DNA from: Halomonas eurihalina
GTDB taxonomy: Bacteria; Pseudomonadota; Gammaproteobacteria; Pseudomonadales; Halomonadaceae
Assembly (NCBI RefSeq): GCF_008274785.1
Contig: NZ_VTPU01000005.1
Coordinates: 1-64,000, forward strand
DNA length: 64,000 nucleotides
Direction of reading: 5' to 3'
In this document: one piece after another, positions 1 to 63,464 of the stretch
How the letters are laid out: each line of letters starts with the position of its first letter
Numbering within the stretch: the first letter of the stretch is position 1
Program-made: the position numbers and the translations under genes
Notes under the pieces: generated by a model
Database searches by the model: none
What the model was told of the DNA's origin: nothing
The model's input: only the letters and a program-made list of their open reading frames with translations

Positions 1-212
1 GCAAAACAGGTGCTTCTGCCACCCTTCACCGCCTGCAACGTTGCCCGTCGCCGGCAGCGGATGCGTACTTTACGGATTCGAACGGCAGCACGCAAGGACT
101 TTTTGCCGAGTCATCTCGAACGCACACCAAGACGCGCCCCTGCCCCGACGCAACCAGCAGGTATCCCGGCAGATCCAGGGACCTGCTCGCCAATCGGCGT
201 AATAAAGTACGT

Positions 213-1367
213 TCAACTCTCGCCGCGCCTCGAGCCCGCAACCAGCGAATCTACGCCAAGATCGGAGATGCTACGCGCTCCGGTGAGCGTCATCGCGACT
301 CGCACCTCCTTTTCGAACAGCTCGAGCAGATGGGCCACGCCCGACTCCCCGGCAGTAGCGAGCGCATAGACGAAGGCCCGCCCCAGCAACACGGTATCGG
401 CGCCCATGGCGATCATTCGCACGACATCCAGCCCACTGCGCACACCGGAGTCGGCCAGGATGGCAAGGTCGCCCTTCACTGCATCGGCGATGGCAGGCAG
501 GGCTCGCGCGGTGGAGGGCACTCCGTCGAGCTGGCGACCACCATGGTTGGAAACGACGATGCCATCCGCCCCGAAACGGACAGCGTCACGGGCATCCTCG
601 GGGTCGAGTATCCCCTTGATGATCATCGAGCCGTCCCAGTACTCGCGAATCCACTCCAGGTCCTTCCAGGAGATGGAAGGATCGAAATTATCGCCGAGCC
701 AGGCGATGTAATCCTCGAGCTCCGTCGGTTGACCGCGGTAATCCGATACATTGCCAAGATCATGTGGGCGACCATGAACGCCCACATCCCAGGCCCAGGA
801 CGGATGGATCACGGCCTGGAGCATGCGCCGAATCGCTGCATGCCGGCCGCTCATTCCTGAATGGGCATCACGATAGCGCGCCCCCGGTACGGGCATGTCG
901 ACCGTGAAGACGAGCGTCTTGATGCCGGCGGCCTTGGCTCGCTCCAGAACGTGGCGCATGAACCCTCTGTCTTTCAACACATAGAGTTGAAACCAGAGAG
1001 GACGATCCACTGCAGAGGCCACCTCGTCGATGGGGCATACCGATACCGTGGACAAGGTGAACGGTATGCCCTTGCTGGCGGCGGCCCTGGCTGCCTGCAC
1101 CTCACCTCGTCTGGCATACATGCCTGCCAGCCCCACAGGGGCCAGGGCGACGGGCATCGCCAGGGATTCGCCGAACAGCTCGGTTTCCAGCGACAGCGTG
1201 GACATATCCTTCAACACACGCTGACGCAAGGCAATATCGGCGAGATCCTCGACATTGCGCCGCAGCGTATGCTCGGCATAGGCGCCCCCGTCGGCGTAAT
1301 GGAAGAGGAAGGGTGGAATGCGGCGCTTGGCGGCTTGGCGATAGTCCGTGGCAGCTGAAATGATCAT
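213..1367 (-). CDS. lldD: FMN-dependent L-lactate dehydrogenase
   Basis: Oxidises L-lactate to pyruvate and passes electrons to the quinone pool at the inner membrane. The 384-residue product is the usual length for the family. It keeps the FMN-dependent alpha-hydroxyacid dehydrogenase fold and the active-site motif [10 protein letters not shown], with the catalytic His near residue 275. The ATG at 1365-1367 has only a weak ribosome site (AGAGC). It is divergent from the GntR-type regulator at 1652, and two LldR-type palindromes lie between them, so lactate-induced derepression is likely. No lactate permease (lldP) is adjacent. The family is clear; L-lactate rather than another 2-hydroxyacid is supported by the lldR neighbour. 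Confidence 0.93.
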
Positions 1368-1440
1368 GGCGAGCTCTGGGCAATGGATGGGCCATCGACG
1401 GCTTGAGGGGCATCATGGTCGCGACGGCGACAAAATGGAT

Positions 1441-1457
1441 AATTGGTAAAACCAATT
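1441..1457. promoter_or_regulatory. lldO1: LldR-type operator 1
   Basis: The sequence AATTGGTAAAACCAATT is an inverted repeat with TTGGT and ACCAA half-sites, the pattern bound by FadR-family GntR regulators such as LldR. It lies 74 bp upstream of the lldD start. Confidence 0.8.
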
Positions 1458-1581
1458 TTAATCTTTTTACCACTGCACGTTATGGCGCGGCAGCATGGCT
1501 GTCAAACTCGCCCCTGCACGCCTCTTCCGCCCGAACTGCCTTGCGATAGGAGTTTTCTCACCCAAAAGCCCCTAGCTCGCT

Positions 1582-1596
1582 ATTGGTAATACCAAT
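1582..1596. promoter_or_regulatory. lldO2: LldR-type operator 2
   Basis: ATTGGTAATACCAAT repeats the half-sites of the palindrome about 140 bp away. It lies 55 bp upstream of the chosen lldR start. Two spaced sites in a divergent promoter region match the two-operator arrangement known for E. coli lld. Confidence 0.8.
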
Positions 1597-1651
1597 TTTA
1601 CAACGCTATCATGCTGCCCTGATGCTCGACTCCGTAGCGAAGGTCCCCGAG

Positions 1652-2425
1652 ATGTCCTATCAACCCGTCCGCCAGCCCCGCCTCGCCGACGTCATCACCG
1701 AGCGACTCGAAAGCCTCATCCTCGAAGGTAGCCTGAAACCCGGCCAGCGACTGCCTCCGGAGCGCGAACTCGCCGAACGCTTCGGCGTGTCACGCCCCTC
1801 GGTACGCGAGGCGATACAGAAACTCGCCGCTCGCGGGCTGCTGGCCAGCCGCCAGGGCGGCGGCACCTTCATTACCGAAGCCCTCCATAATGGCTACGGC
1901 GATCCGCTGCTCGACATGCTGTCCCGTCACAATGAATTCCATCTGGATCTGCTGGAGTTCCGCGATGCCATGGAGAGCCTCTCGGCGTACTACGCCGCCT
2001 TGCGTTCCACGCCCACGGACAGGGCAATGCTGCTAGAGCGCTTCGAGGAACTCGAGGCCTGCTTCGCCAACCGCGACCCGGCGAGCGAGGCCAAGGCAGA
2101 TGCCGCCTTCCACCTGGCCATCGCCGAGGCCGCTCATAACGTCATGCTGTTGCACACCATCCGTGGCATCTTCCACCAGCTCGAGCGCAGCATCGTCGAC
2201 AACCTGGGCCATCTGCTCGACAAGCCCGATGCCCGGCAGCAGTTGATGGCGCAGCACCGCGCCTTGCTGGATGCCATTCTCGAGGGACGCGCCGAGGACG
2301 CCCGCACCCGTTCCCACGAGCATCTGGTATACGTGGAGGAGGGCTTGCTGGAAGTGGCCCGCGCCGAGACCCGGGCCCAGCGTTCGCTGCGCCGGGCTCA
2401 AGCCATGCCGACGGCGTCGTCCTGA
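1652..2425 (+). CDS. lldR: Lactate-responsive GntR/FadR-family regulator
   Basis: Transcriptional regulator of 257 residues. It has an N-terminal winged helix (about residues 8-75, with PPERELAERFGVSRPSVREA) followed by an all-helical FCD ligand-binding domain. I chose ATG 1652 (MSYQPVR) because AAGG lies 8 bases upstream and the protein then begins as the family does. The frame is open to 1583, but that start would sit inside the operator. The divergent lldD and paired palindromes point to lactate control of lldD and autoregulation. The downstream sensor kinase gene begins 3 bases after the stop, so both may share a transcript. Confidence 0.9.
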   Translation: MSYQPVRQPRLADVITERLESLILEGSLKPGQRLPPERELAERFGVSRPSVREAIQKLAARGLLASRQGGGTFITEALHNGYGDPLLDMLSRHNEFHLDLLEFRDAMESLSAYYAALRSTPTDRAMLLERFEELEACFANRDPASEAKADAAFHLAIAEAAHNVMLLHTIRGIFHQLERSIVDNLGHLLDKPDARQQLMAQHRALLDAILEGRAEDARTRSHEHLVYVEEGLLEVARAETRAQRSLRRAQAMPTASS

Positions 2426-2428
2426 GCC

Positions 2429-4348
2429 ATGGTCGGCAGTCATCGTCTGACACGTCGCCAACGTGCCCTTCGTGTCCTGCTCGCGGGCCTGGGGCTGGCC
2501 GGCCTCGCCCTGTGCATGTGGCAGACCGCCCAGGTCGCTCGGGAGCAGGCCTTGCAGGACCTGCGTCGCGATGCCGAAAACGAACTGCGGCTCTCGGCAG
2601 CCGGTCTGGTCGGTCACCTGTCGCGCCATGACTACCTGCCGGAACTGCTGGCCTCGCGGGAAATGGTCAAGCGCTTCCTCTTCTCGCCGGACAGCCAGAA
2701 TTCCATGCCGCTCAACCTGATGCTGGATCGCTTCCGCGCCACCGCCGGGGTATCCGATATTTATCTGCTCGATCATCAAGCCAACACCCTGGCCGCCAGC
2801 AACTGGCACCGCCCCAACACCTTCATCGGCGAGAACTACCACTATCGGAGCTACTACCAGGAAGCCATCCAGGGGCGCCGTGGCCACTTCTATGGCCTGG
2901 GTGTCCAATCGATGACCCGGGGCTACTACTTCTCGGCACCGGTCTGGCTGGACGAAACCGCACCGAACGCCACCCCGGACGGCGTCATGGTGCTCAAGGT
3001 CACCCTCGATGCCGTGGAGCAGAGCTGGGCCGAACAAGATGCCGAGCTGCTGGTCACCGACCGCGACGGTATCGTCTTCATGGCCAGCCAGCCGGAGCTG
3101 CGCCTGACTGCCATGACCCCGCTCAGCGACGCCGAGCGCGAGGCACTCCACGACTCACGGCGTTATGCCGACGAACCGCTCCCGCACGCCGGCATTCAAG
3201 AGATCGAACGGCGCGACCCCCGCACCCGCCTGGTCGACTTTTCCTCCGGCCCCCTTCAGGGCCAGCGCTATCTCAGCCTGACCCGTGCCATGCCTGACTT
3301 CGAGTGGGACATGCACATTCTTAAGCCGCTGACACCGGTCGTCAGTGCTCAATGGGTCTCGGCCCTGCTGGCCGGGGGCCTCTATGGCCTGGTCGCTCTG
3401 GGCGGCGGCATCGGTTGGCAGCGCCTGCGCCTGCGCCGGGAACGCGAGCGCTTCGCTGAACGCGAACGCCACACCCTGGCCCGGGTCCGCGATGAGCTCG
3501 AGCGCAACGTGGCCAAGCGTACCCACGACCTGGTGACCACCAACCAGCGACTATCCGACGAAATCGAGGAACGCCGCCGTGCCGAAGACAGCCTCCGCGA
3601 GACCCGCGACGAACTGGTACAGGCCGCCAAGCTCGCCGTGCTCGGCCAGTTGGCCGCTGGCATCAACCATGAGCTCAACCAGCCCCTGTCGGCGATCCGC
3701 GCCTATGCAGAGAACGCCCGCGCCTTCATCGAGCGTGATCGTATCGAGACCGCCGACGCCAATCTCGACCAGATCATCCAGCTCACCGAGCGCATGTCCG
3801 AGATCAGCGCCCAGTTGCGGCAGTTCTCGCGCAAGAGTGGCGACACCCTCACCGCCGTCTCCGTACCTTCCTGCTTCGACTATGCGTTGCGGCTATTCCA
3901 GGCGCGCCTCAACGAACTCGGTGTCACGGTGGAACGCCACTGGCAAGCGGAAGACATCTGGGTACGCGCCGATCCGGTGCGCCTCGAACAGGTCCTGGTC
4001 AACCTGATCGGCAATGCCCTCCAGGCCATGGCGGATACCGCCACTCCGCATCTGGTGCTGACCATCGACTCGACGCCGGAACAGGTGAAGATTCGCGTGG
4101 CCGACAGCGGCCCCGGCATCGCCGAGGCACAGCTATCACGCGTCTTCGAGCCTTTCTTCACCACCAAGTCCACGGGCAGCGGCCTGGGGCTGGGCCTTTC
4201 CATCTCGGGGCGCATCATCGACGACCTGGGTGGCCGCATCGAGGCCGACAACGCCCCTGGCGGCGGCGCTCTGTTCACCATTACCCTGCCACCCAACCCC
4301 GGGCCAGAGGCCCGCCGAACGACCGAGGAGTCATCGACCCATGCATGA
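2429..4348 (+). CDS. dctB: DctB-type sensor histidine kinase
   Basis: Membrane sensor kinase of 639 residues. One transmembrane helix lies near residues 12-31 and another near 305-328, enclosing a periplasmic double-Cache-like sensor domain. A coiled linker leads to the HisKA domain with phospho-acceptor His about residue 414 in [18 protein letters not shown]. The HATPase domain has an N-box ([11 protein letters not shown]) and G-boxes ([15 protein letters not shown]). DctB kinases typically sense C4-dicarboxylates or related acids. The stop overlaps the start of the response-regulator gene by 8 bases, so the pair is translationally coupled. The ligand is not shown by sequence. Confidence 0.9.
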
Positions 4349-16325: not shown

Positions 16326-16430
16326 TATAGGCCCTTTGTCTATGAAACTTTTATCTATGAAAGCTTTATCTATGAAACCTTGCCCTATGAAACCTTGCCC
16401 TATGAAACCTTGCCCTATGAAACCTTGGCG
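16326..16430 (+). repeat. 15-nt tandem repeat, seven units
   Basis: Seven 15-nt units stand head to tail. Units at 16371, 16386 and 16401 are identical (TATGAAACCTTGCCC); the unit at 16416 differs only at its end, and the three upstream units are degenerate. An eighth weak unit may begin at 16311. The array abuts the fold-back element and lies between divergent clusters. It is not a CRISPR: there are no spacers. Confidence 0.9.
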
Positions 16431-24573: not shown

Positions 24574-24661
24574 GGGGCGATCTCCTAGCGATGCCCGCTC
24601 AGCATGCCCCAGCGCCATGACCGCACCATGGCGGCCAGATGACGATATTGTGTCCAGAAGA

Positions 24662-24717
24662 GGGAAGAGGGAAGAGGGAAGAGGGAAGAGGGAAGAGGGA
24701 AGAGGGAAGAGGGAAGA
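24662..24717 (+). repeat. Heptanucleotide tandem array, eight units
   Basis: Eight perfect copies of GGGAAGA (56 bp) lie upstream of the phosphoesterase gene, in the space it shares with the end of ahcY. A short hairpin (GCTCCAA, loop AGG, TTGGAGC, 24723-24739) follows. Such arrays change length by slippage; as seven is not a multiple of three, any read-through frame would shift. Confidence 0.95.
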
Positions 24718-24823
24718 GCCTAGCTCCAAAGGTTGGAGCATCATCAAGAGCTTTCTGCTCTCTTGAAGGTGCTAAGCGCCGTGCTTCCCTCTTCCAGCGG
24801 CACCAGCCGCGTTCTTCCGGCTT

Positions 24824-29695: not shown

Positions 29696-31788
29696 ATGCC
29701 GACCCGTTTCGAACTGGCCAACGCCATTCGCGCCCTTTCCATGGATGCCGTCCAGAAGGCCAACTCCGGTCACCCCGGCGCCCCCATGGGCATGGCCGAC
29801 ATCGCCGAGGTCCTGTGGAACGATTTCCTCGTCCACAATCCCGCCGATCCGCACTGGCCCGACCGTGACCGCTTCGTGCTCTCCAACGGCCACGGCTCCA
29901 TGCTTCTCTATTCCCTGCTGCATCTCTCCGGCTACGAGCTCGGCCTCGAGCAACTGCAGAACTTCCGCCAGCTGCACGCCAAGACCGCCGGCCATCCTGA
30001 GTACGGCTATGCACCGGGCATCGAGACCACCACCGGCCCGCTGGGCCAGGGCCTGGCCAACGCCGTCGGCATGGCCATCGCCGAGCGCACCCTGGCCGCC
30101 CAGTTCAACCGCCCCGGCCACACCATCGTCGACCATCACACCTACTGCTTCGTCGGCGACGGCTGCCTGATGGAAGGCATTTCCCATGAGGTCGCCTCCC
30201 TGGCCGGCACCCAGCAGCTCGGCAAGCTGATCGCCTTCTACGACGACAACGGCATCTCCATCGACGGCGAGGTCGAAGGCTGGTTCACCGACGACACCGC
30301 CAAGCGCTTCGAGGCCTACGGCTGGCACGTGGTGCCCAATGTCGACGGTCACCAGCCCGAGCAGGTCAAGGCGGCCATCGAACTGGCCCGCCAGCACAGC
30401 GACACGCCCAGCCTGATCATCTGCAAGACGGTGATCGGCTTCGGCGCGCCCAACAAGCAGGGCAAGGAGTCCTGCCACGGCGCGGCGCTGGGCGAGGACG
30501 AGGTCGCCGCCGCCCGCGAGCAGCTCGACTGGCCGCATGCGCCCTTCCATGTGCCGGAGGCGATCTACCAGGGCTGGGACGCCAGCGAGGCCGGCCGCAC
30601 CCGCCAGGCCGACTGGCAGGCGCGGTTCGAGCGCTACGCCGCGGCCCATCCCGAGCTGGCCCGCGAGTTCCTGCGCCGCCAGAAGGGCGAGCTGCCCGCC
30701 GAACTGAGCAGCGAAGCGCTGATCGAGCAGGCCCAGGACAAGGCCGAGACCACCGCCTCGCGCAAGGCCTCGCTGGCCTGCCTCAACGAACTCGGCCCGC
30801 AGCTCCCCGAGCTGCTCGGCGGCAGCGCCGACCTGGCGCCCTCCAACCTGACGGTCTGGAACGGTGCCCGGGTGATCGGCCCCGAGGGCTCGCGTGAGGG
30901 CGCTCCCGACGGCAACTACCTGCACTATGGCGTGCGCGAGTTCGGCATGGCCGCCATCGCCAACGGCATCGCCCTGCACGGCGGCTTCGTGCCCTACACC
31001 GCGACCTTCCTGATCTTCATGGAGTACATGCGCAACGCCGTGCGCATGGCCGCGCTGATGGGGCTGCGCAGTATCTACGTGTTCACCCACGACTCCATCG
31101 GCCTCGGCGAGGATGGCCCCACCCACCAGCCGGTCGAGCAGCTGACCACCCTGCGCAGCACGCCCAACATGTCGACCTGGCGCCCCTGCGATGCCGTGGA
31201 GACCGCCGCGGCCTGGAACGCCGCCCTCAAGCGCCAGTCCGGCCCCACCGCCCTGGTGCTGTCGCGTCAGAACCTGCCGCATCAGGCCCGCGACAAGCAG
31301 CAGCTCGCCGATATCCAGCGGGGTGGGTACGTACTGAAAGAGAGTATCCTCAAGGGCAGCGTGGTGACGCCGGAGCTGATCCTGATCGCCACCGGCTCCG
31401 AGGTCGGCCTGGCCATGGACGCCGCCGCGGCGCTGGCCGACAAGGGCCGCCGGGTGCGCGTGGTCTCCATGCCCGCCACCGACGTCTTCGATGCCCAGGA
31501 CGCCGAATACCGCCAGCGGGTGTTGCCCGCCGAAGTCGGCAACCGCCTCGTCATCGAGGCCGGCCACCCGGATCTCTGGTACAAGTACGTCGGCCTCGAG
31601 GGTCGGGTCATCGGCATGACCACCTTCGGCGAATCCGCCCCGGCCGGCGACCTGTTCAAGCACTTCGGCTTCACCGTCGACAACATCGTCGACGAGGCCG
31701 AGCAAATGCTCGACGACGCCGAGGACTGAGCACGCCTGGCCGCTCAGGAAAAATGAAAGGGCGCGACCAATTGGCCGCGCCCTTTTTC
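29692..31788 (+). repeat. Long direct repeat, copy A (whole tkt gene plus terminator)
   Basis: About 2.1 kb almost identical to 43178-45290. Similarity begins only at CCCC before the ATG and runs through the terminator, about 55 bases past the stop. In the coding part I found one difference, at 31702 (G) against 45188 (A), synonymous. Confidence 0.93.
29696..31729 (+). CDS. tkt: Transketolase, copy 1
   Basis: Thiamine-diphosphate enzyme of 677 residues that moves two-carbon units between ketoses and aldoses, linking xylulose-5-P, ribose-5-P, erythrose-4-P and glycolytic intermediates. TPP/Mg motif: [18 protein letters not shown]; further signatures [11 protein letters not shown] and [18 protein letters not shown] 29696 has GAGGAG at a good distance. 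The protein is identical to that of the second copy at 43182. Here it stands alone behind its own promoter, divergent from metK, so it is the likely housekeeping copy. Confidence 0.96.
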
Positions 31789-42130: not shown

Positions 42131-42220
42131 CGCGACGCTAGCGGCCTGCCAGATTCTTCGCCCGGATGGTGCTCGGCACTGTCCGGGCGCCCCTCGCCCA
42201 TTGTTCCAGTGGAGACACTC

Positions 42221-43168
42221 ATGGTTTCACGACTCGACGACCTCAAGCAGCACTCCCTGGTGGTCGCCGACACCGGCGACCTGGACGCCATCCGGCGCTA
42301 CCAGCCCCAGGACGCCACCACCAACCCGTCCTTGATCCTCAAGGCCTTCGACATGCCCGGCTATCAGCCGCTGATCGAACGGGAGCTGGCCACGCTCCCC
42401 GCCCAGGGTGACAAACAGGAGCGCGCCGCCCGGGCCGTCGATCACCTGGCCGTGGCCATGGGCAGCGAGATCGCCGGCGTGGTCCCCGGGCGCGTCTCCA
42501 CCGAAGTGGCCGCCCGACTGTCCTTCGATACCCAGGCCAGCATCCGCAAGGCCCATGAGCTGATCGAGCTCTACGCACAGCGCGGCATCGGCCGCGACCG
42601 GGTATTGATCAAGCTGGCCTCGACCTGGGAGGGCATCCGTGCCGCCGAGGTACTGGAGAAGGAAGGCATCAACTGCAACCTGACGCTGCTGTTCAGCGAT
42701 GCCCAGGCCCAGGCCTGCTTCGATGCCGGCGTCTTTCTGGTCTCGCCCTTCGTCGGTCGGGTCACCGACTGGTACAAGAAAGAAACCGGCCGGGATTTCC
42801 CCCCCGAAAACGATCCCGGCGTACAGTTCGTGCGCGGTGTCTGTGAACGCGTCAGCCAGGGCGGCTATGACACCGTGGTCATGGGGGCCAGTTTCCGCAC
42901 CGCCGACCAGGTCCTGGCACTCGCTGGCTGCCCGCGGCTGACCATCTCGCCGGCGTTGCTCGAAGAGCTGGCCACCACACCGGGGACCGTCAAACCCAAG
43001 GTGCTCATGACACGTAACGGCGGCCCGCGACCGACATCGCTCAGCGAGTCCGGCTTCCGCTGGGAGCACAATCAGGATGCCATGGCCAACGACAAGCTGG
43101 CCGAAGGCATCCGTCGTTTCGACGACGACCAGTCACGCCTCGAGCAACGCATCGCCGACCGCCTTTGA
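42221..43168 (+). CDS. tal: Transaldolase
   Basis: Class I transaldolase of 315 residues, TalB type. It has the [11 protein letters not shown] motif near the N-terminus and the Schiff-base Lys in [17 protein letters not shown]. It transfers a dihydroxyacetone unit between sedoheptulose-7-P and glyceraldehyde-3-P, producing or using erythrose-4-P, the predicted end product of the adjacent pathway. ATG 42221 has GGAG at 7 bases; an in-frame GTG at 42209 overlaps that site. It is 13 bases upstream of the second tkt. Confidence 0.95.
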
Positions 43169-43181
43169 TCCAGGAGTCCCC

Positions 43182-45215
43182 ATGCCGACCCGTTTCGAAC
43201 TGGCCAACGCCATTCGCGCCCTTTCCATGGATGCCGTCCAGAAGGCCAACTCCGGTCACCCCGGCGCCCCCATGGGCATGGCCGACATCGCCGAGGTCCT
43301 GTGGAACGATTTCCTCGTCCACAATCCCGCCGATCCGCACTGGCCCGACCGTGACCGCTTCGTGCTCTCCAACGGCCACGGCTCCATGCTTCTCTATTCC
43401 CTGCTGCATCTCTCCGGCTACGAGCTCGGCCTCGAGCAACTGCAGAACTTCCGCCAGCTGCACGCCAAGACCGCCGGCCATCCTGAGTACGGCTATGCAC
43501 CGGGCATCGAGACCACCACCGGCCCGCTGGGCCAGGGCCTGGCCAACGCCGTCGGCATGGCCATCGCCGAGCGCACCCTGGCCGCCCAGTTCAACCGCCC
43601 CGGCCACACCATCGTCGACCATCACACCTACTGCTTCGTCGGCGACGGCTGCCTGATGGAAGGCATTTCCCATGAGGTCGCCTCCCTGGCCGGCACCCAG
43701 CAGCTCGGCAAGCTGATCGCCTTCTACGACGACAACGGCATCTCCATCGACGGCGAGGTCGAAGGCTGGTTCACCGACGACACCGCCAAGCGCTTCGAGG
43801 CCTACGGCTGGCACGTGGTGCCCAATGTCGACGGTCACCAGCCCGAGCAGGTCAAGGCGGCCATCGAACTGGCCCGCCAGCACAGCGACACGCCCAGCCT
43901 GATCATCTGCAAGACGGTGATCGGCTTCGGCGCGCCCAACAAGCAGGGCAAGGAGTCCTGCCACGGCGCGGCGCTGGGCGAGGACGAGGTCGCCGCCGCC
44001 CGCGAGCAGCTCGACTGGCCGCATGCGCCCTTCCATGTGCCGGAGGCGATCTACCAGGGCTGGGACGCCAGCGAGGCCGGCCGCACCCGCCAGGCCGACT
44101 GGCAGGCGCGGTTCGAGCGCTACGCCGCGGCCCATCCCGAGCTGGCCCGCGAGTTCCTGCGCCGCCAGAAGGGCGAGCTGCCCGCCGAACTGAGCAGCGA
44201 AGCGCTGATCGAGCAGGCCCAGGACAAGGCCGAGACCACCGCCTCGCGCAAGGCCTCGCTGGCCTGCCTCAACGAACTCGGCCCGCAGCTCCCCGAGCTG
44301 CTCGGCGGCAGCGCCGACCTGGCGCCCTCCAACCTGACGGTCTGGAACGGTGCCCGGGTGATCGGCCCCGAGGGCTCGCGTGAGGGCGCTCCCGACGGCA
44401 ACTACCTGCACTATGGCGTGCGCGAGTTCGGCATGGCCGCCATCGCCAACGGCATCGCCCTGCACGGCGGCTTCGTGCCCTACACCGCGACCTTCCTGAT
44501 CTTCATGGAGTACATGCGCAACGCCGTGCGCATGGCCGCGCTGATGGGGCTGCGCAGTATCTACGTGTTCACCCACGACTCCATCGGCCTCGGCGAGGAT
44601 GGCCCCACCCACCAGCCGGTCGAGCAGCTGACCACCCTGCGCAGCACGCCCAACATGTCGACCTGGCGCCCCTGCGATGCCGTGGAGACCGCCGCGGCCT
44701 GGAACGCCGCCCTCAAGCGCCAGTCCGGCCCCACCGCCCTGGTGCTGTCGCGTCAGAACCTGCCGCATCAGGCCCGCGACAAGCAGCAGCTCGCCGATAT
44801 CCAGCGGGGTGGGTACGTACTGAAAGAGAGTATCCTCAAGGGCAGCGTGGTGACGCCGGAGCTGATCCTGATCGCCACCGGCTCCGAGGTCGGCCTGGCC
44901 ATGGACGCCGCCGCGGCGCTGGCCGACAAGGGCCGCCGGGTGCGCGTGGTCTCCATGCCCGCCACCGACGTCTTCGATGCCCAGGACGCCGAATACCGCC
45001 AGCGGGTGTTGCCCGCCGAAGTCGGCAACCGCCTCGTCATCGAGGCCGGCCACCCGGATCTCTGGTACAAGTACGTCGGCCTCGAGGGTCGGGTCATCGG
45101 CATGACCACCTTCGGCGAATCCGCCCCGGCCGGCGACCTGTTCAAGCACTTCGGCTTCACCGTCGACAACATCGTCGACGAGGCCGAACAAATGCTCGAC
45201 GACGCCGAGGACTGA
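43182..45215 (+). CDS. tkt: Transketolase, copy 2
   Basis: 677 residues, identical in translation to the gene at 29696. It is last in the rightward dhaK-dhaL-tal-tkt operon; CAGGAG stands 5 bases before ATG 43182 and 13 bases separate it from the tal stop. In this position it would be co-induced with the polyol pathway to drain erythrose-4-P into the pentose-phosphate pool. TPP motif [13 protein letters not shown] as in copy 1. Confidence 0.96.
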
Positions 45216-56837: not shown

Positions 56838-57839
56838 ATGCTCACGACACGCACACAATCAGGACGCTTCCTCAAGCCGCTCATCATCGCTGCCACCCTG
56901 GCCGCCACACTCGGCGCGACGGGCATCGCCCAGGCCGTGGAGCTGCGCTTCGGTCACGGCGGCACCGAGGACACCGCCTACCACCTCGGCGCGACCCGCT
57001 TCCAGGAGCTGGTCGAGGACAAGAGCGACGGTGATATCGGCGTCCAGATCATGGGCAATTCGGTACTCGGCCATGAAACCGAGATGTTCGAGCAGCAGAT
57101 GGCCGGCGCACTGGACCTGTCGATCATCAATCCCGGCCTGATCACCGACTTCTCATCCACCGCCAATGTCTTCTCCATTCCCTTCCTGTATCGCGACCAG
57201 GCGCACTGGCAGGCCGTGCTCGATGGTGACGTGGGCCGCGAGATCGCCGATCGCATCACGGAGGAAACCGGCGTCAAGGTGCTGGCCTTCTTCGGCGGCG
57301 GCAAGCGCCAGATCGTCAGCAGCCGCCCGCTCGAGAGCCTCGACGACCTGAAGGGCATGAAGCTGCGCACCAACCCGACCAAGCCCTTGATCGCCGCTTG
57401 GTCGGCGCTGGGTACCGAACCCACGGTCATGGCCTGGAAGGAGATCTACACGGGCCTGCAGCTCGGCGCCATCGATGGCTTGCTCAACGAGGCCGAATGG
57501 ATCCACCGCATGCGGTTTCATGAAGTCGCCCCGCATATCGGCCTTTCCGAGCACGACATCACGGTACGCCTGCTGACCATGTCACAAATGTCCTGGGACC
57601 GCCTCGACGAGAGCCAGCAGCAGGCCGTGATGGAAGCCGCCCGCGAGGCCGCGAGCTATGCGCGTCAGGTCCAGCTCGAGCAGGATGCCGAGGCCCTGGA
57701 TCTGCTCGTCGAGGAAGGCGCCACCCTGCATGAACTGGACCGGGAGCGCATGCAGGAGATCGTCAGTGAACCGCTCGCCGAAGTCGTCGAGGAAATGGGG
57801 CTGACCGAGCTGCGCCAGAAGATCGCCAACGTCGAGTGA
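56838..57839 (+). CDS. dctP: TRAP transporter solute-binding protein, DctP family
   Basis: Periplasmic receptor of 333 residues. The signal peptide ends near residue 32 (GIAQA). Mature features: LRFGHGGTEDTAYHLGA and the ligand Arg in LKGMKLRTNPTKPLI, the conserved carboxylate-binding residue, so an organic or sugar acid is expected. First of the dctP-dctQ-dctM genes inside the kgu-like operon; the probable ligand is 2-ketogluconate or a related aldonate. Confidence 0.9.
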   Translation: MLTTRTQSGRFLKPLIIAATLAATLGATGIAQAVELRFGHGGTEDTAYHLGATRFQELVEDKSDGDIGVQIMGNSVLGHETEMFEQQMAGALDLSIINPGLITDFSSTANVFSIPFLYRDQAHWQAVLDGDVGREIADRITEETGVKVLAFFGGGKRQIVSSRPLESLDDLKGMKLRTNPTKPLIAAWSALGTEPTVMAWKEIYTGLQLGAIDGLLNEAEWIHRMRFHEVAPHIGLSEHDITVRLLTMSQMSWDRLDESQQQAVMEAAREAASYARQVQLEQDAEALDLLVEEGATLHELDRERMQEIVSEPLAEVVEEMGLTELRQKIANVE

Positions 57840-57898
57840 GCCCTTGCCGGGGTGCCTGGCGCCCCGGCTCAGGATCTCGCCCTCCGGAGAACGCCGCC

Positions 57899-58501
57899 AT
57901 GAGACGCCTGTTGCACGGCCTGACTCACCTGAATCGCGGGCTGGAGCGCTGCCTTCACTGGCTCCTGCTGGCCCTGCTGTTCGGTTTCATCGCCTTGATC
58001 GTCTATCAGATCGTCAGCCGTAATCTGCCGCTGATGCCTCGCCTGTACTGGACCGAGGAATTCAGCCGCTTCGCCTTTCAGTGGATGATCATGCTGGGCA
58101 CCGCCATCGGCGTGCTGCATGCCGACCACTTCGTCCTCGAGGCCTTCCCGCGTGGCTCGCGGGCCAGCCTTGTGACGCGCTGGATACGCGATCTGGCCTG
58201 CCTGGCCGTCGGCCTGATCTTCGTCATCCACGGCAAGGATTTCGCCCTGTCCGGCCTGCGGCGCGAGGCCACCGCCTCGGGACTGTCGATGATCTACGTC
58301 TATTCGGCCTTCAGCGTCAGCGGCCTGCTGATCGTCCTGTTCAGCGCCCAGCGGCTGCTGCACGCCCTGCTCGATGGCGTGCCCCGCATGGAAGCCAGCC
58401 TCGACACGCCCGACGCCGTCGAGGAGGCGCTCGAGGCGCACGCCGGGCACGGCGATGAACTGGATCCTTCGCTCTCTTCCACCGACGGGAGAACGCCATG
58501 A
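57899..58501 (+). CDS. dctQ: TRAP transporter small permease, DctQ family
   Basis: Four-helix membrane protein of 200 residues with LYWTEEFSRFAFQWMIMLG (W-T-E-E motif of DctQ) and a soluble acidic tail. ATG 57899 follows CGGAG; an open frame back to 57836 overlaps the receptor stop and is unlikely. It ends by ATGA overlap with dctM. Confidence 0.9.
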   Translation: MRRLLHGLTHLNRGLERCLHWLLLALLFGFIALIVYQIVSRNLPLMPRLYWTEEFSRFAFQWMIMLGTAIGVLHADHFVLEAFPRGSRASLVTRWIRDLACLAVGLIFVIHGKDFALSGLRREATASGLSMIYVYSAFSVSGLLIVLFSAQRLLHALLDGVPRMEASLDTPDAVEEALEAHAGHGDELDPSLSSTDGRTP

Positions 58502-59805
58502 TTCCCATGGATGCCGTCTTCATCCTGCCCTGGCTGCTGTTCGGCCTGCTCGGTGTGCTGATCGTCGCCGGAGTGCCGATCGCCATGGCCCTGGTCCTGA
58601 CCGCCGCCGGCATGATCCTGCTCGACCCGCGCCTGACCTATTGGGTCATGTTCCAGCGCATGTACAACGGCATGGACTCGTTCGTGCTGCTCGCCGTGCC
58701 GTTGTTCCTGCTGGCCGGCAACCTGATGAACGCCGCGCGCATCACCGACCGGCTGATCACCCTGTGCATGCGCCTGGTGGGCCACTTCAAGGGCGCCCTG
58801 GCACATGTCAACGTGATGGTCAGCATGCTGTTCGCCGGCGTCTCCGGTTCTTCGACGGCCGACAGCGCCGGCGTGGGTACCGTGCTGATCCCGGCCATGC
58901 AGCGCGAGGGCTATCCGAGCCACTTCTCGGTGGCCGTGACCGCCGCCTCGTCGGTCATGGGCATCATCATTCCCCCTTCCATCAACATGATCGTCTGGGG
59001 TGCCCTGACCAACACCTCCATCGCCGGCCTGTTCCTCGGCGGCATCCTGCCCGGCGTGATGATCGGCGTGGCCCAACTCGCGCTCAACGTCGGCTATGTG
59101 CGTCGCTACCAGGTGCCGGTTCGCCGTCGCGCCTCGCTGATCGAACTGGCGCGCTCGAGCAAGGACGGCCTGCTGGCCGCCGGCATTCCCGTGGTCATCA
59201 TCGGTGGCATCACCCTGGGGCTGGTCACTCCCACCGAGGCAGCGGTGATCGCCGTGCTCTACGCCCTGGCGCTGGGCACCCTCGTCTATCGGGAACTCAA
59301 CCTCGCCAAGGTGCTTGATGCCTCCACCGACACCGTGCGCCTGTGCTCACTGTCGCTGTTCAGCCTGGTCGGGGCGGCGATCTTCGGCTATCTGATCAGC
59401 TTCTACCAGATTCCCCCCAAGCTGATGGCCGGCGTCAACATCAGCGATCCCGTGATGCTTCTGCTGTTGATGACCGCCGTCATGCTGGTCATCGGCACCT
59501 TCATGGACTCCCTGCCGGCCATGGCCATCATGGCGCCGATCTTCCAGCCCCTGGCCATGCAGGCCGGCGTCCATCCGGTGCAGTTCGGCGTCATCGGCGT
59601 CATGGCGCTGGGCCTGGGGCTGATCACGCCGCCCTATGGTCTCTGCCTGATGATCTCGGCGAAGATCGGCGGCATTCCGCTGCTCCAGGCGCTCGGCACC
59701 ACGCTGCTGTATCTGGCCGTCATGCTGGGCGTGATTCTGTTGCTGATCCTCTATCCGGATCTGATCCTGATGCTGCCCCGACTGATCGCTCCCGATTTCG
59801 TGTGA
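58498..59805 (+). CDS. dctM: TRAP transporter large permease, DctM family
   Basis: Channel-forming permease of 435 residues with about 12 helices. DctM signatures: LLAVPLFLLAGNLM, GVSGSSTADSAGVGTVLIP, SSVMGIIIPPSINMIVWG and LGLITPPYGLCLM. It uses an ion gradient to import the ligand delivered by DctP. The start overlaps dctQ by ATGA. It ends 72 bases before the second HAD gene. Confidence 0.93.
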   Translation: MIPMDAVFILPWLLFGLLGVLIVAGVPIAMALVLTAAGMILLDPRLTYWVMFQRMYNGMDSFVLLAVPLFLLAGNLMNAARITDRLITLCMRLVGHFKGALAHVNVMVSMLFAGVSGSSTADSAGVGTVLIPAMQREGYPSHFSVAVTAASSVMGIIIPPSINMIVWGALTNTSIAGLFLGGILPGVMIGVAQLALNVGYVRRYQVPVRRRASLIELARSSKDGLLAAGIPVVIIGGITLGLVTPTEAAVIAVLYALALGTLVYRELNLAKVLDASTDTVRLCSLSLFSLVGAAIFGYLISFYQIPPKLMAGVNISDPVMLLLLMTAVMLVIGTFMDSLPAMAIMAPIFQPLAMQAGVHPVQFGVIGVMALGLGLITPPYGLCLMISAKIGGIPLLQALGTTLLYLAVMLGVILLLILYPDLILMLPRLIAPDFV

Positions 59806-59877
59806 GCCTGCATCGTGCCGCCTGGCCGGGTACACTGGCCGGCGGCGACCCATCCACGACCAACCCACGAGGCTTTC

Positions 59878-60597
59878 ATGTCCGCGTCCTCGCCTTCCGC
59901 CCTGCCGGCTTCGGCTCCCTCCTCTTCGGCTCCCCTCTGCCTGCTGTTCGACTCCGACGGTACCCTGGTCGACAGCGAGATTCTGCTGGCCGAGGTCATG
60001 GGCGAGGTCCTGCCCGAGTACGGGCTCCCCTTTACCGCCCGCCAGTACATGGAAGCCTTCCGGGGCGTTCGCTTTCACGATATCGTCGCCACCCAGCAGC
60101 GCCGTCACGGCCAGCTCACCGAAGACAACCTGGCGCGCCTGGAAGCCGCAATGCGCACTCGCATGCAAGCACGCATGACCGAGGAGCTCGTCGCCATCGA
60201 CGGCATGCCCGACGCGCTGGACGCCCTGGCCGCCTACCCCAAGGCCGTCGTCTCCAACGGCCCCGACAGCAAGATCCGCTGCGCCATGGCCAGTGCCGGC
60301 CTGGCACACCACTTCGGCGACCACCTGTTCAGCGCCTACACCCTGGGCGTCTGGAAGCCCGACCCCGGCCTCTACCTCAAGGCGGCCGAGGCCATGGGCT
60401 TCCCACCCGAGCGCTGCGTGGTGATCGACGATGCAGCGGTGGGCGTGGAAGCCGGACTGGCCGCCGGCATGCAGGTGATTCACCTCAACCACTTCCCCGA
60501 TGAGGAAACCACGCCCGAGGGCGCCATCGCTCTCCTCCACGCCAGCGAATTGCCCGAGGTCATCGCGCGGCTGGCGAGTACTCGGCAGGCATTCTGA
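59878..60597 (+). CDS. HAD-superfamily sugar-phosphate phosphatase (YieH-like), paralogue 2
   Basis: 239 residues. After a Ser/Ala/Pro-rich N-terminus of about 18 residues, the sequence aligns along its length with the HAD protein at 52917: FDSDGTLVDSE, VVSNGP, LFSAYTLGVWKPDPGLY and IDDAAVGVEAGLAAGM. ATG 59878 follows ACGAGG. Its last 29 bases are included in the 376-bp tandem duplication, so a copy of its 3' end lies at 60945. Together the two HAD genes bracket the kgu/TRAP operon. Confidence 0.87.
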   Translation: MSASSPSALPASAPSSSAPLCLLFDSDGTLVDSEILLAEVMGEVLPEYGLPFTARQYMEAFRGVRFHDIVATQQRRHGQLTEDNLARLEAAMRTRMQARMTEELVAIDGMPDALDALAAYPKAVVSNGPDSKIRCAMASAGLAHHFGDHLFSAYTLGVWKPDPGLYLKAAEAMGFPPERCVVIDDAAVGVEAGLAAGMQVIHLNHFPDEETTPEGAIALLHASELPEVIARLASTRQAF

Positions 60598-60944
60598 GCC
60601 GGCATCAGGACGTCGCGACCGGCTCCGCCAGTCCCGCTACCGGTGCCGGCATACGAAGCAGGCTACCGGCATCAGGCCAACGCTTTCGCTCCTCGTCGTT
60701 CAGGTGTTGAGTGGCGGTGGTGATGTAGAGCGTCCGCAGATCGGGGCCTCCGAAGGCCACCATGGTGGGGTGCGGGCAAGGTAGCTCGAAGCTCGCCTCC
60801 AGCCTTCCCTCGGGAGAGAAACGCACGATACGCCCTCCCCCATAAAGAGCGCTCCAATAGCAGCCCTCGCTATCCACGGCGGCACCATCCGGCACCCCCG
60901 GCAAGCCCAGGGCATCCAGATCCGCCCAGACCCTCGGCTCGCCG
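60569..60944 (+). repeat. 376-bp tandem duplication, unit 1
   Basis: Identical by eye to the next 376 bases. The unit starts with GGCTGGCGAGTACTCGG inside the end of the HAD gene and ends with CCTCGGCTCGCCG inside the SMP-30 gene. Confidence 0.93.
60605..60944 (-). pseudogene. Truncated duplicate of the 3' part of the SMP-30 gene
   Basis: This minus-strand piece encodes the same last 99 residues (PGVPDGAAVDSEG to AEPVATS) as the intact gene but lacks the first two thirds. It lies in unit 1 of the tandem duplication. It could be read only from an internal ATG without an obvious ribosome site, so it is probably not functional. Confidence 0.88.
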
Positions 60945-61320
60945 GGCTGGCGAGTACTCGGCAGGCATTCTGAGCCGGCATCAGGACGTCGCGACCGGCT
61001 CCGCCAGTCCCGCTACCGGTGCCGGCATACGAAGCAGGCTACCGGCATCAGGCCAACGCTTTCGCTCCTCGTCGTTCAGGTGTTGAGTGGCGGTGGTGAT
61101 GTAGAGCGTCCGCAGATCGGGGCCTCCGAAGGCCACCATGGTGGGGTGCGGGCAAGGTAGCTCGAAGCTCGCCTCCAGCCTTCCCTCGGGAGAGAAACGC
61201 ACGATACGCCCTCCCCCATAAAGAGCGCTCCAATAGCAGCCCTCGCTATCCACGGCGGCACCATCCGGCACCCCCGGCAAGCCCAGGGCATCCAGATCCG
61301 CCCAGACCCTCGGCTCGCCG
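60945..61320 (+). repeat. 376-bp tandem duplication, unit 2
   Basis: Second unit, identical to 60569-60944. It holds the real 3' end of the SMP-30 gene. The junction CGCCG-GGCTGG has at most 1 bp of shared sequence, pointing to an illegitimate tandem duplication. Confidence 0.93.
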
Positions 61321-61874
61321 GTGCAGCCAGTCTCCATATCAAAGGGATAACGCAGGATCCGCCGGGTCAACGAGTCCGTGTGATAAAGCCAGCGTCGGTC
61401 GGGGCTGAAGGCCAGTCCATTGGCAATGCCGAGACCAGACCACCGCTGCACCAGTTCTCTCCCCTCGAAGCAGTAGAGAGCCGCGGAAGGCGTATCCTCG
61501 TCGGCGGCAATCGTACCCGCCCAGAAACGCCCGGCCGCATCGCAGCGGCCATCGTTGAAGCGATTGCCCTTCTCGTCGTGCCACTCGGGGTTGTCCGCCA
61601 GGCGCTCGGTCCGGCCATCGAACGGTAATCGCAGCCTGATGATGCCCGAGGCCGTGGCGGCGAGCAGTCCTTCCTCGCACAACGCAATGCAGCCGACCTT
61701 TTCATCCAGCTCGATGCGCGAGGGCGCTGCGTGCCGATCCGGCTGCCAGGCATGGATCACGCCATGATTGATATCCACCCAGTGGAGCGTCTGCCGCGCC
61801 ACCGACCATAACGGGCTCTCGCCCAGACTCATGTCGAGCTCGACCGCCACCTGCACTCGTGTCTCCGTCACCAT
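60981..61874 (-). CDS. SMP-30/gluconolactonase family protein
   Basis: Six-bladed beta-propeller of 297 residues with a divalent metal site. Typical blocks: LGESPLWSVARQTLHWVDI (first metal Glu), EKGNRFNDGRCDAAGRFWAGT, GIANGLAFSPDRRWLYHTDS and PDGAAVDSEGCYW. It opens sugar lactones such as glucono- or other aldonolactones. No signal peptide, so cytosolic. It follows a sugar porter on the same strand, suggesting an oxidative route in which the imported sugar becomes a lactone; no matching sugar dehydrogenase is seen between them. Confidence 0.9.
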   Translation of the reverse strand: MVTETRVQVAVELDMSLGESPLWSVARQTLHWVDINHGVIHAWQPDRHAAPSRIELDEKVGCIALCEEGLLAATASGIIRLRLPFDGRTERLADNPEWHDEKGNRFNDGRCDAAGRFWAGTIAADEDTPSAALYCFEGRELVQRWSGLGIANGLAFSPDRRWLYHTDSLTRRILRYPFDMETGCTGEPRVWADLDALGLPGVPDGAAVDSEGCYWSALYGGGRIVRFSPEGRLEASFELPCPHPTMVAFGGPDLRTLYITTATQHLNDEERKRWPDAGSLLRMPAPVAGLAEPVATS

Positions 61875-61900
61875 GCGATTACCTGCCCCTTCCTCGGTCG

Positions 61901-61990
61901 TTAAACCTGCGGCGTGCCCTGACGCGCCACGTCACCGACAACGACGACGCCAGAGCGGTCGGCCAGCTTCCTGTTGACCGCTTCACTCAT
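61901..61990 (-). CDS. Small ORF (29 codons) between sugar porter and SMP-30 genes
   Basis: ATG 61990 overlaps the sugar-porter stop (ATGAGTGA) and the frame ends at 61901, 27 bases before the SMP-30 start. It encodes MSEAVNRKLADRSG followed by VVVVGDVARQGTPQV. I do not recognise it; it could be a translational-coupling leader or the remnant of a deleted gene. Confidence 0.4.
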   Translation of the reverse strand: MSEAVNRKLADRSGVVVVGDVARQGTPQV

Positions 61991-63389
61991 ACGCCATTTC
62001 CTCGAGTTCCTTGCCTCGCGTTTCCTGGACCCAGCGCAGCACAAAGCAGGCCGACAGCACGGCACACAAGGCATAGAAGCCATAGGCGCCCGCCAGGCCG
62101 ATGGATGCCAGCATGATCGGGAAGGTCATGGTAATGCCGAAGTTGGCCAGCCACTGGAACAGCCCGGCGATGGCGAGTCCCGAACCACGCATCTGATTGG
62201 GAAACATCTCGCCCAGCATTACCCACATCACCGGTCCCCAGGAGACGTTGAAGCTGAACACGTAGATATTGGCGGCCAGCAGGGCCAACACGCCCATGTC
62301 GTCGCTGAGCTGCAGATTCCCGTCGACCATGGTTGCCGTGGAAAAGGCGAAGACCAGACAGGCCAGGGTAATGGCCATTCCCACCGAGCCGACCCACAGC
62401 AGGGGCTTGCGGCCGATCTTGTCGATCAACGCGATTGCCAGCAGGCAAGCGCCGATGCTCACGGCCCCTGTGATCACGTTGATCAGCAGAGCATCGCCCT
62501 CCGAGAAGCCTACCGATTGCCACAGCACTGCGCCGTAATAGAACACCACATTGATGCCTACCAGCTGCTGGAACACCGCCAGGCCGATACCGACCCAGAC
62601 AATGCCATGCACCTTGCCGGTCGCGCGGTTGACCACATCGCTCAACCGCGGCTTGTGATCACGATCCAGGGTAGTGTGGATCTCATCGAGCTTGTCGCCG
62701 ACCTCTTGCTCCGGCATCACCAGGCCCAGCACCCGGCGAGCTTCCGACTGTCGACCACTGCTGATCAAGTATCGCGGGCTCTCGGGGATGAACAGTAGCG
62801 CCACCAGGAATACCGCCGCTGGCAGCAGTTCGATCCAGAACATCCAGCGCCAGGTGGCAAAGCCGAACCACAGCTCGGCGACCGCCGAACTCGAGACATA
62901 GGCCAGCACGTAGTTGCTCAGAAAAGCCATGAACAAGCCGCCGATGATGGCCACCTGCTGGATGGTAGCCAGGCGACCGCGATACCTCGAGGGCGCCACT
63001 TCACTGATATAGGCCGGCGTCATCACACTGGCGGCCCCCACTGCCATGCCACCGAGGACGCGATAAACCACGAATTCCATCGAACCACCGGCGATTCCCG
63101 ACCCCCAGGCACTCACCAGGAAGAAAATCGCCGAAACGATCAATACCGTACGACGGCCAAAGCGGTCCGCCAGGCGACCGGCAAAGAAGGCACCGACGGC
63201 ACAGCCCAGCAGCATGGATGCCACGTTGAAGCCGGTACCGACACTGTCGGAATTGAAAGAGGATTGGAGACCATCGACCGTGCCGTTGATGACGCCACTA
63301 TCGAAGCCGAAGAGAAAGCCACCGATGGCGGCAATACAGCATATGATGAGTATATAGGCAGAACGACTGAGCGGTTTGCGATCCGTCAT
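61983..63389 (-). CDS. Sugar porter family MFS transporter (XylE/GalP-like)
   Basis: Twelve-helix sugar symporter of 468 residues. It has all the family marks: GGFLFGFDSGVINGT in helix 1, RLADRFGRR between helices 2 and 3, PESPRYL after helix 6, QQLVGINVVFYYG in helix 7, DKIGRKPLL, and a C-terminal ETRGKELEE (PETKG position). ATG 63389 follows GGAG. It imports a hexose or pentose, probably with protons; the LamB-type porin upstream supplies passage through the outer membrane. Confidence 0.93.
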   Translation of the reverse strand: MTDRKPLSRSAYILIICCIAAIGGFLFGFDSGVINGTVDGLQSSFNSDSVGTGFNVASMLLGCAVGAFFAGRLADRFGRRTVLIVSAIFFLVSAWGSGIAGGSMEFVVYRVLGGMAVGAASVMTPAYISEVAPSRYRGRLATIQQVAIIGGLFMAFLSNYVLAYVSSSAVAELWFGFATWRWMFWIELLPAAVFLVALLFIPESPRYLISSGRQSEARRVLGLVMPEQEVGDKLDEIHTTLDRDHKPRLSDVVNRATGKVHGIVWVGIGLAVFQQLVGINVVFYYGAVLWQSVGFSEGDALLINVITGAVSIGACLLAIALIDKIGRKPLLWVGSVGMAITLACLVFAFSTATMVDGNLQLSDDMGVLALLAANIYVFSFNVSWGPVMWVMLGEMFPNQMRGSGLAIAGLFQWLANFGITMTFPIMLASIGLAGAYGFYALCAVLSACFVLRWVQETRGKELEEMAYE

Positions 63390-63464
63390 GTTCAATCTCC
63401 AGAAAAAAGGGCGCCCGAGCCCAGGCACCAATATCGAAGCAACAGCAAGCAGGTCACGGGGCCA

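Follow-up and report, generated by a model that had tools for sequence, protein, structure and literature searches.

Gene content of the locus and structure of the repeated unit

The stretch of DNA analysed here (the window) comprises bases 1-64000 of contig C53 (215,903 bases), which belongs to a 3.84-Mb draft genome of Halomonas in 60 contigs. Pfam searches with the six proteins encoded at 56838-63431 identified three parts of a TRAP transporter, a HAD-superfamily hydrolase, an SMP-30/gluconolactonase/LRE-like protein (SGL) and a sugar MFS transporter; the three TRAP transporter genes lie upstream of the HAD gene, and the sugar MFS transporter gene lies beyond the SMP-30 gene. The HAD and SMP-30 genes are convergent, and a direct repeat occupies the region in which they meet (Table 1). 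The start of the HAD gene was taken as the ATG at 59878; in the list of open reading frames, this frame runs from an upstream GTG. Of two related genomes, H. elongata 153B (G020) and a genome available as one contig of 4,061,825 bases (G075), the latter has a HAD protein with 97% identity over residues 1-238, and both have an SMP-30 protein with 97% identity.

Table 1. Features of the duplicated region (window coordinates)
Feature	Position	Strand	Description
HAD-superfamily hydrolase gene, intact	59878..60597	+	239 aa + stop; Pfam PF00702 7.6e-24, PF13419 2.6e-21
Duplicated unit, copy 1	60569..60944		HAD CDS end, 29 bases (60569-60597); intergenic, 7 (60598-60604); SMP-30 3' part, 340 (60605-60944)
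SMP-30 3' fragment in copy 1	60605..60944	-	Residues 186-297 + stop, 112 SMP-30 codons
Novel joint between units	60939..60950		SMP-30 sequence joined to HAD end; 1 bp (G) microhomology
Duplicated unit, copy 2	60945..61320		Identical to copy 1
Orphan HAD gene end, 29 bases (second copy)	60945..60973	+	Start of unit 2
SMP-30/gluconolactonase/LRE-like gene, intact	60981..61874	-	297 aa, 894 bases; Pfam PF08450 SGL 4.6e-76

Direct string comparison revealed zero differences between the two units, which are arranged head-to-tail in the same orientation with nothing between them, i.e., as a direct tandem duplication with an offset of 376. Tandem Repeats Finder reported the repeat at 60569-61321, with a period of 376, 2.0 copies, 100% matches and 0% indels; base 61321 also continues the match, bringing the identity at this offset to 377 bases, and an exact match of this length cannot be of chance origin. 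Thus, the two methods agree on the exact 376-bp tandem duplication at convergent gene ends that had been claimed in an earlier note on this DNA. As that note also stated, the unit includes the final 29 bases of the HAD gene together with the 3' part of SMP-30, although the SMP-30 share (340 of 894 bases, 38%) is slightly above the 'last third' given there.

The two breakpoints fall in different genes, the left in one and the right in the other, and both genes are therefore intact: HAD retains its stop codon in unit 1, and SMP-30 does so in unit 2, which bears out the survival of both genes proposed earlier. What is left between them is an SMP-30 fragment whose frame stays open across the joint, comprising 135 codons from stop to stop (upstream TAG at 61013-61015). 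The 99 codons previously assigned to this fragment apply only when it is counted from its first listed start, a TTG at 60904, and in annotation this unit 1 frame should be labelled a duplicated fragment rather than a gene. The fragment had also been described as promoterless; indeed, a simple consensus scan, which is a weak test, found no sigma-70-like promoter in 60300-61950. However, the fragment is co-directional with SMP-30 and lies 36 bases downstream of it, and therefore it may be transcribed by read-through. The spare SMP-30 tail appears to be debris with no evident job, and no sign of function was found.

A remnant of a second HAD gene was observed elsewhere in the contig, outside the window. 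This 62-codon frame (L133:14735-14923; C53:74735-74923) has two internal deletions that keep the frame, and both Asp residues of the N-terminal DxD motif read Gly. The tail of the relic matches the HAD locus of G014 with 85% identity (74861-75001). The relic abuts a gene for a siderophore-interacting protein that has kept its SIP domain and is without the FAD-binding domain of the G075 relative.

Relatives and the ancestral arrangement

Over approx. 3.95 kb, the genome studied (G000) differs from G020 by 4.9% (95.1% identical) and from G075 by 3.1% (96.9% identical); judged by these sequences, the two are the nearest relatives among those found. Each has one unit, ungapped within the unit, and HAD and SMP-30 stop codons that are 7 bp apart. 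In the sample of the genus (90 genomes, one per species), 32 genomes, including this one, matched the SMP-30 search at 1e-100, and the count of SMP-30 tails refers to these, weaker SMP-30 matches falling outside it. Among the 31 other genomes, 30 (all but G071; G020 and G075 included) were represented by a locus, and each of these has one SMP-30 tail, with the reservation that in G005 (L013) the contig stops 129 bases past the tail, so that a second copy might have gone unnoticed. When 57 loci were compared, two tails were present in L001, L110 and L128 (this genome), while L131 and L132 were without SMP-30; inheritance of the duplication from relatives was rejected on the single tail found at all 52 other SMP-30 loci, several of which come from the same genomes.

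A relative of the HAD gene lies within the 1.5-kb flanks of SMP-30 in nine of the 30 genomes (G006, G018, G020, G021, G025, G075, G076, G078, and G088), and therefore the HAD/SMP-30 neighbourhood predates the duplication. The single unit of G020 and G075, together with the single tail in 30/30 genomes, is what an ancestral single copy should leave, and on this sequence comparison the two-unit state is the derived one. It should be noted that, whereas the earlier note had proposed a search for single-unit strains, the single-unit relatives found here are other species.

Is the second unit an assembly artefact?

The most serious alternative, albeit an improbable one, is that the strain has one unit, which the assembler doubled, e.g., when contig ends with an overlap were merged or a chimeric read was followed. 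The assembly is a draft in many contigs, the joint is present in this assembly only, and both nearest relatives have one unit, all of which would be compatible with such an error. However, the ends of the contigs argue against it. Among seven unmasked contig ends, three are made up of tandem repeat over exactly 77 bases (the C53 end and the C20 start, both with period 7, and the C1 start, with period 24), while no array terminates the other four (the C53, C10, C60, and C13 starts). Since the three repeat ends share the same length, they suggest a de Bruijn assembly with k=77, a reading that draws on the default k series of SPAdes; in that case, every 77-mer across the joint would have been seen in the reads. 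A longer array would collapse to a loop in such a graph, and therefore 'two' units is a minimum; likewise, a mixed population of one-unit and two-unit cells would look identical in such an assembly.

The composition of the assembly also speaks against an error of this kind. Contig C53 is without N, and the 376-bp duplication is its sole exact direct repeat of at least 50 bases at offsets 31-3000. In 120 kb of five other contigs, the sole long exact repeat (offsets >20) is the 24-base array at the C1 start. Thus, duplicates of this kind are not widespread in the sampled assembly. As for the background, exact direct repeats of at least 50 bases within 3 kb occur in two of the 79 named loci (652,519 bases) and were not found in 200 kb of G075. 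In one of these loci, L047, the repeats form three pairs (offsets 205-227; exact matches, 68-110 bases) that may represent an imperfect array, and the other, L091, has one 66-base exact match at offset 1502; in both, the exact match is shorter than the offset. The duplication is therefore probably real.

Other repeats were observed in the contig. Two transketolase genes (window 29696-31729 and 43182-45215; PF00456 1.2e-160 each) lie 13.5 kb apart, and one of them is preceded by a transaldolase gene (42209-43168, PF00923). They differ at one of 2034 CDS bases (31702), with an exact 2010-base match that begins 4 bases before the ATG; going by the sequences, this pair may have been duplicated recently or homogenised by gene conversion. 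Arrays of 7-base repeats (GAAGAGG; AGCTCGT/AGCTCGA-like) are found at window 24657-24718 and at C53:104074, 141836, and 215827-215903; C53 ends inside the last of these, contig C20 also starts in a period-7 array, and 200 kb of G075 contained none of those motifs that were searched for. Finally, window 16340-16427 contains approx. six copies of the 15-base repeat CTATGAAACCTTGCC, with 91% matches.

Age of the duplication

A comparison of the 376-bp unit with the relatives shows 11 differing sites against G020 and 13 against G075, and six substitutions are private to the genome studied with respect to both relatives. All six are present in both copies, and therefore the duplication occurred later than these changes, while the two copies differ from each other at 0/376 sites. 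If gene conversion is ignored, a Poisson bound (three differences) places the event at less than approx. 27% or 23% of the time since the splits from G020 and G075, respectively. Identical copies, shared private substitutions and single-unit relatives are thus all in keeping with the recent event suggested in the earlier note, and the duplication appears to be recent, with the qualification that gene conversion between the copies could make an older one look young.

Adjacent 376-bp direct repeats can be homogenised, and the perfect identity of the copies would also be expected of an older duplication held identical by gene conversion or by repeated loss and regain. Nonetheless, such a history is quite unlikely: an older duplication is absent from the relatives, which have a single SMP-30 tail in each of the 30 genomes, and a young event explains why the six private substitutions are common to both copies without any need for conversion.

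Two of the private changes are adjacent (60934-60935, and again at 61310-61311), GA in G020 and G075 being replaced by TC. The pair is synonymous in SMP-30 and lies close to the right breakpoint. It equals a 2-base inversion and may have arisen as such, or as two plain substitutions.

The joint and the route of formation

Homology at the joint is just 1 bp, and therefore long homology was not used. When 376-bp segments were placed at random in C53 (20,000 draws), 54% had 0 bp of microhomology and 29% had 1 bp; the observed homology is at chance level and does not discriminate the enzymatic route. At the ends of the unit, no direct repeat of more than one perfect base was found, the best being an imperfect TCGCnnG match (5/7). 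Long flanking direct repeats of the kind required for RecA-dependent, homology-mediated duplication (rrn, IS, REP) are missing, and involvement of a mobile element or target-site duplication receives no support, as no element lies between the copies and no transposase was found among the six Pfam-scanned neighbours. In contrast, short-junction illegitimate duplication is characterised by no or few homologous bases, as here. RecA-independent template switching, slippage with poor pairing, or end joining would fit such a joint.

A 6-bp inverted pair, CTCGCC/GGCGAG, lies near both ends, and arms of at least 6 bases occurred in approx. 4% of random draws. A hairpin or quasi-palindrome route was considered and rejected, since the joint CTCGCC-GGGCT-GGCGAG as single-stranded DNA folds barely above shuffled sequences (z -1.09; 23/200 as good). 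The inverted pair could at most be a weak hint of a hairpin-assisted route.

Interpretation

The most reasonable explanation (with a probability of approx. 80%) is a recent, lineage-specific 376-bp tandem duplication that arose by a copying accident in a Halomonas chromosome close to that of H. elongata and that is known from one assembly. In the ancestor, HAD and SMP-30 would have met tail to tail, their stop codons separated by 7 bp. A copying accident would then have linked the interior of SMP-30 to the position 29 bases short of the HAD end; judging from the 1-bp joint, the likeliest route is RecA-independent, by template switching or by slippage behind a stalled fork, or else end joining. 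Each gene would have kept one full end, with neither protein changed. The resulting array should be unstable and may plausibly collapse by recombination, and if one unit were lost, the locus would return exactly to its single-unit state.

It is very improbable that the rearrangement was selected because the 376-bp insertion parts the convergent genes and cuts transcript collision or antisense overlap. The distance between the stop codons has indeed increased from 7 to 383 bp with both proteins unchanged, and, if true, such a reading would make the array a one-step and exactly revertible insulation of convergent transcripts. However, the simple consensus scan (again a weak test) found no terminator-like site in 60300-61950, the joint included; HAD is followed, for 347 bases past its stop codon, by the sequence that the single-unit arrangement also has there; and the 7-bp spacing is kept in G020 and G075, the wide spacing being confined to one genome. 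Thus, the duplication is most likely neutral, with little consequence beyond annotation. As a copying accident, it nonetheless provides a natural example in which breakpoints in two convergent genes leave both proteins unchanged, and, given strains to work with, the locus could serve as a reversion assay.

Comparison with known duplications

A literature search returned no paper combining Halomonas, tandem duplication and gluconolactonase. Replication slippage can plausibly span a few hundred bases, and the length of the Halomonas unit falls within this range; however, unlike duplications that arise by slippage between short direct repeats, the unit is flanked by no repeat of more than one perfect base.

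In two reports on rearrangements in E. coli and other bacteria, microhomology is described at 40/40 sequenced lac-amplification joints in E. coli, alongside three deletions with 1-4 bp of microhomology (PMC3161906), and short repeats are described at the ends of all confirmed rearrangements (PMC3411829). Compared with the joints published there, the 1 bp seen here lies towards the lower limit. The events in those reports were selected or detected in cultures, are mostly kilobases in length and usually have a few or more bases of homology, whereas the present duplication is 376 bp long, has 1 bp and was found in an assembly (PMC3161906, PMC3411829). Nonetheless, like the illegitimate duplications described there, it is direct, has little homology at the joint and needs no IS or rrn repeat (PMC3161906, PMC3411829), and it is an ordinary event of a known type.
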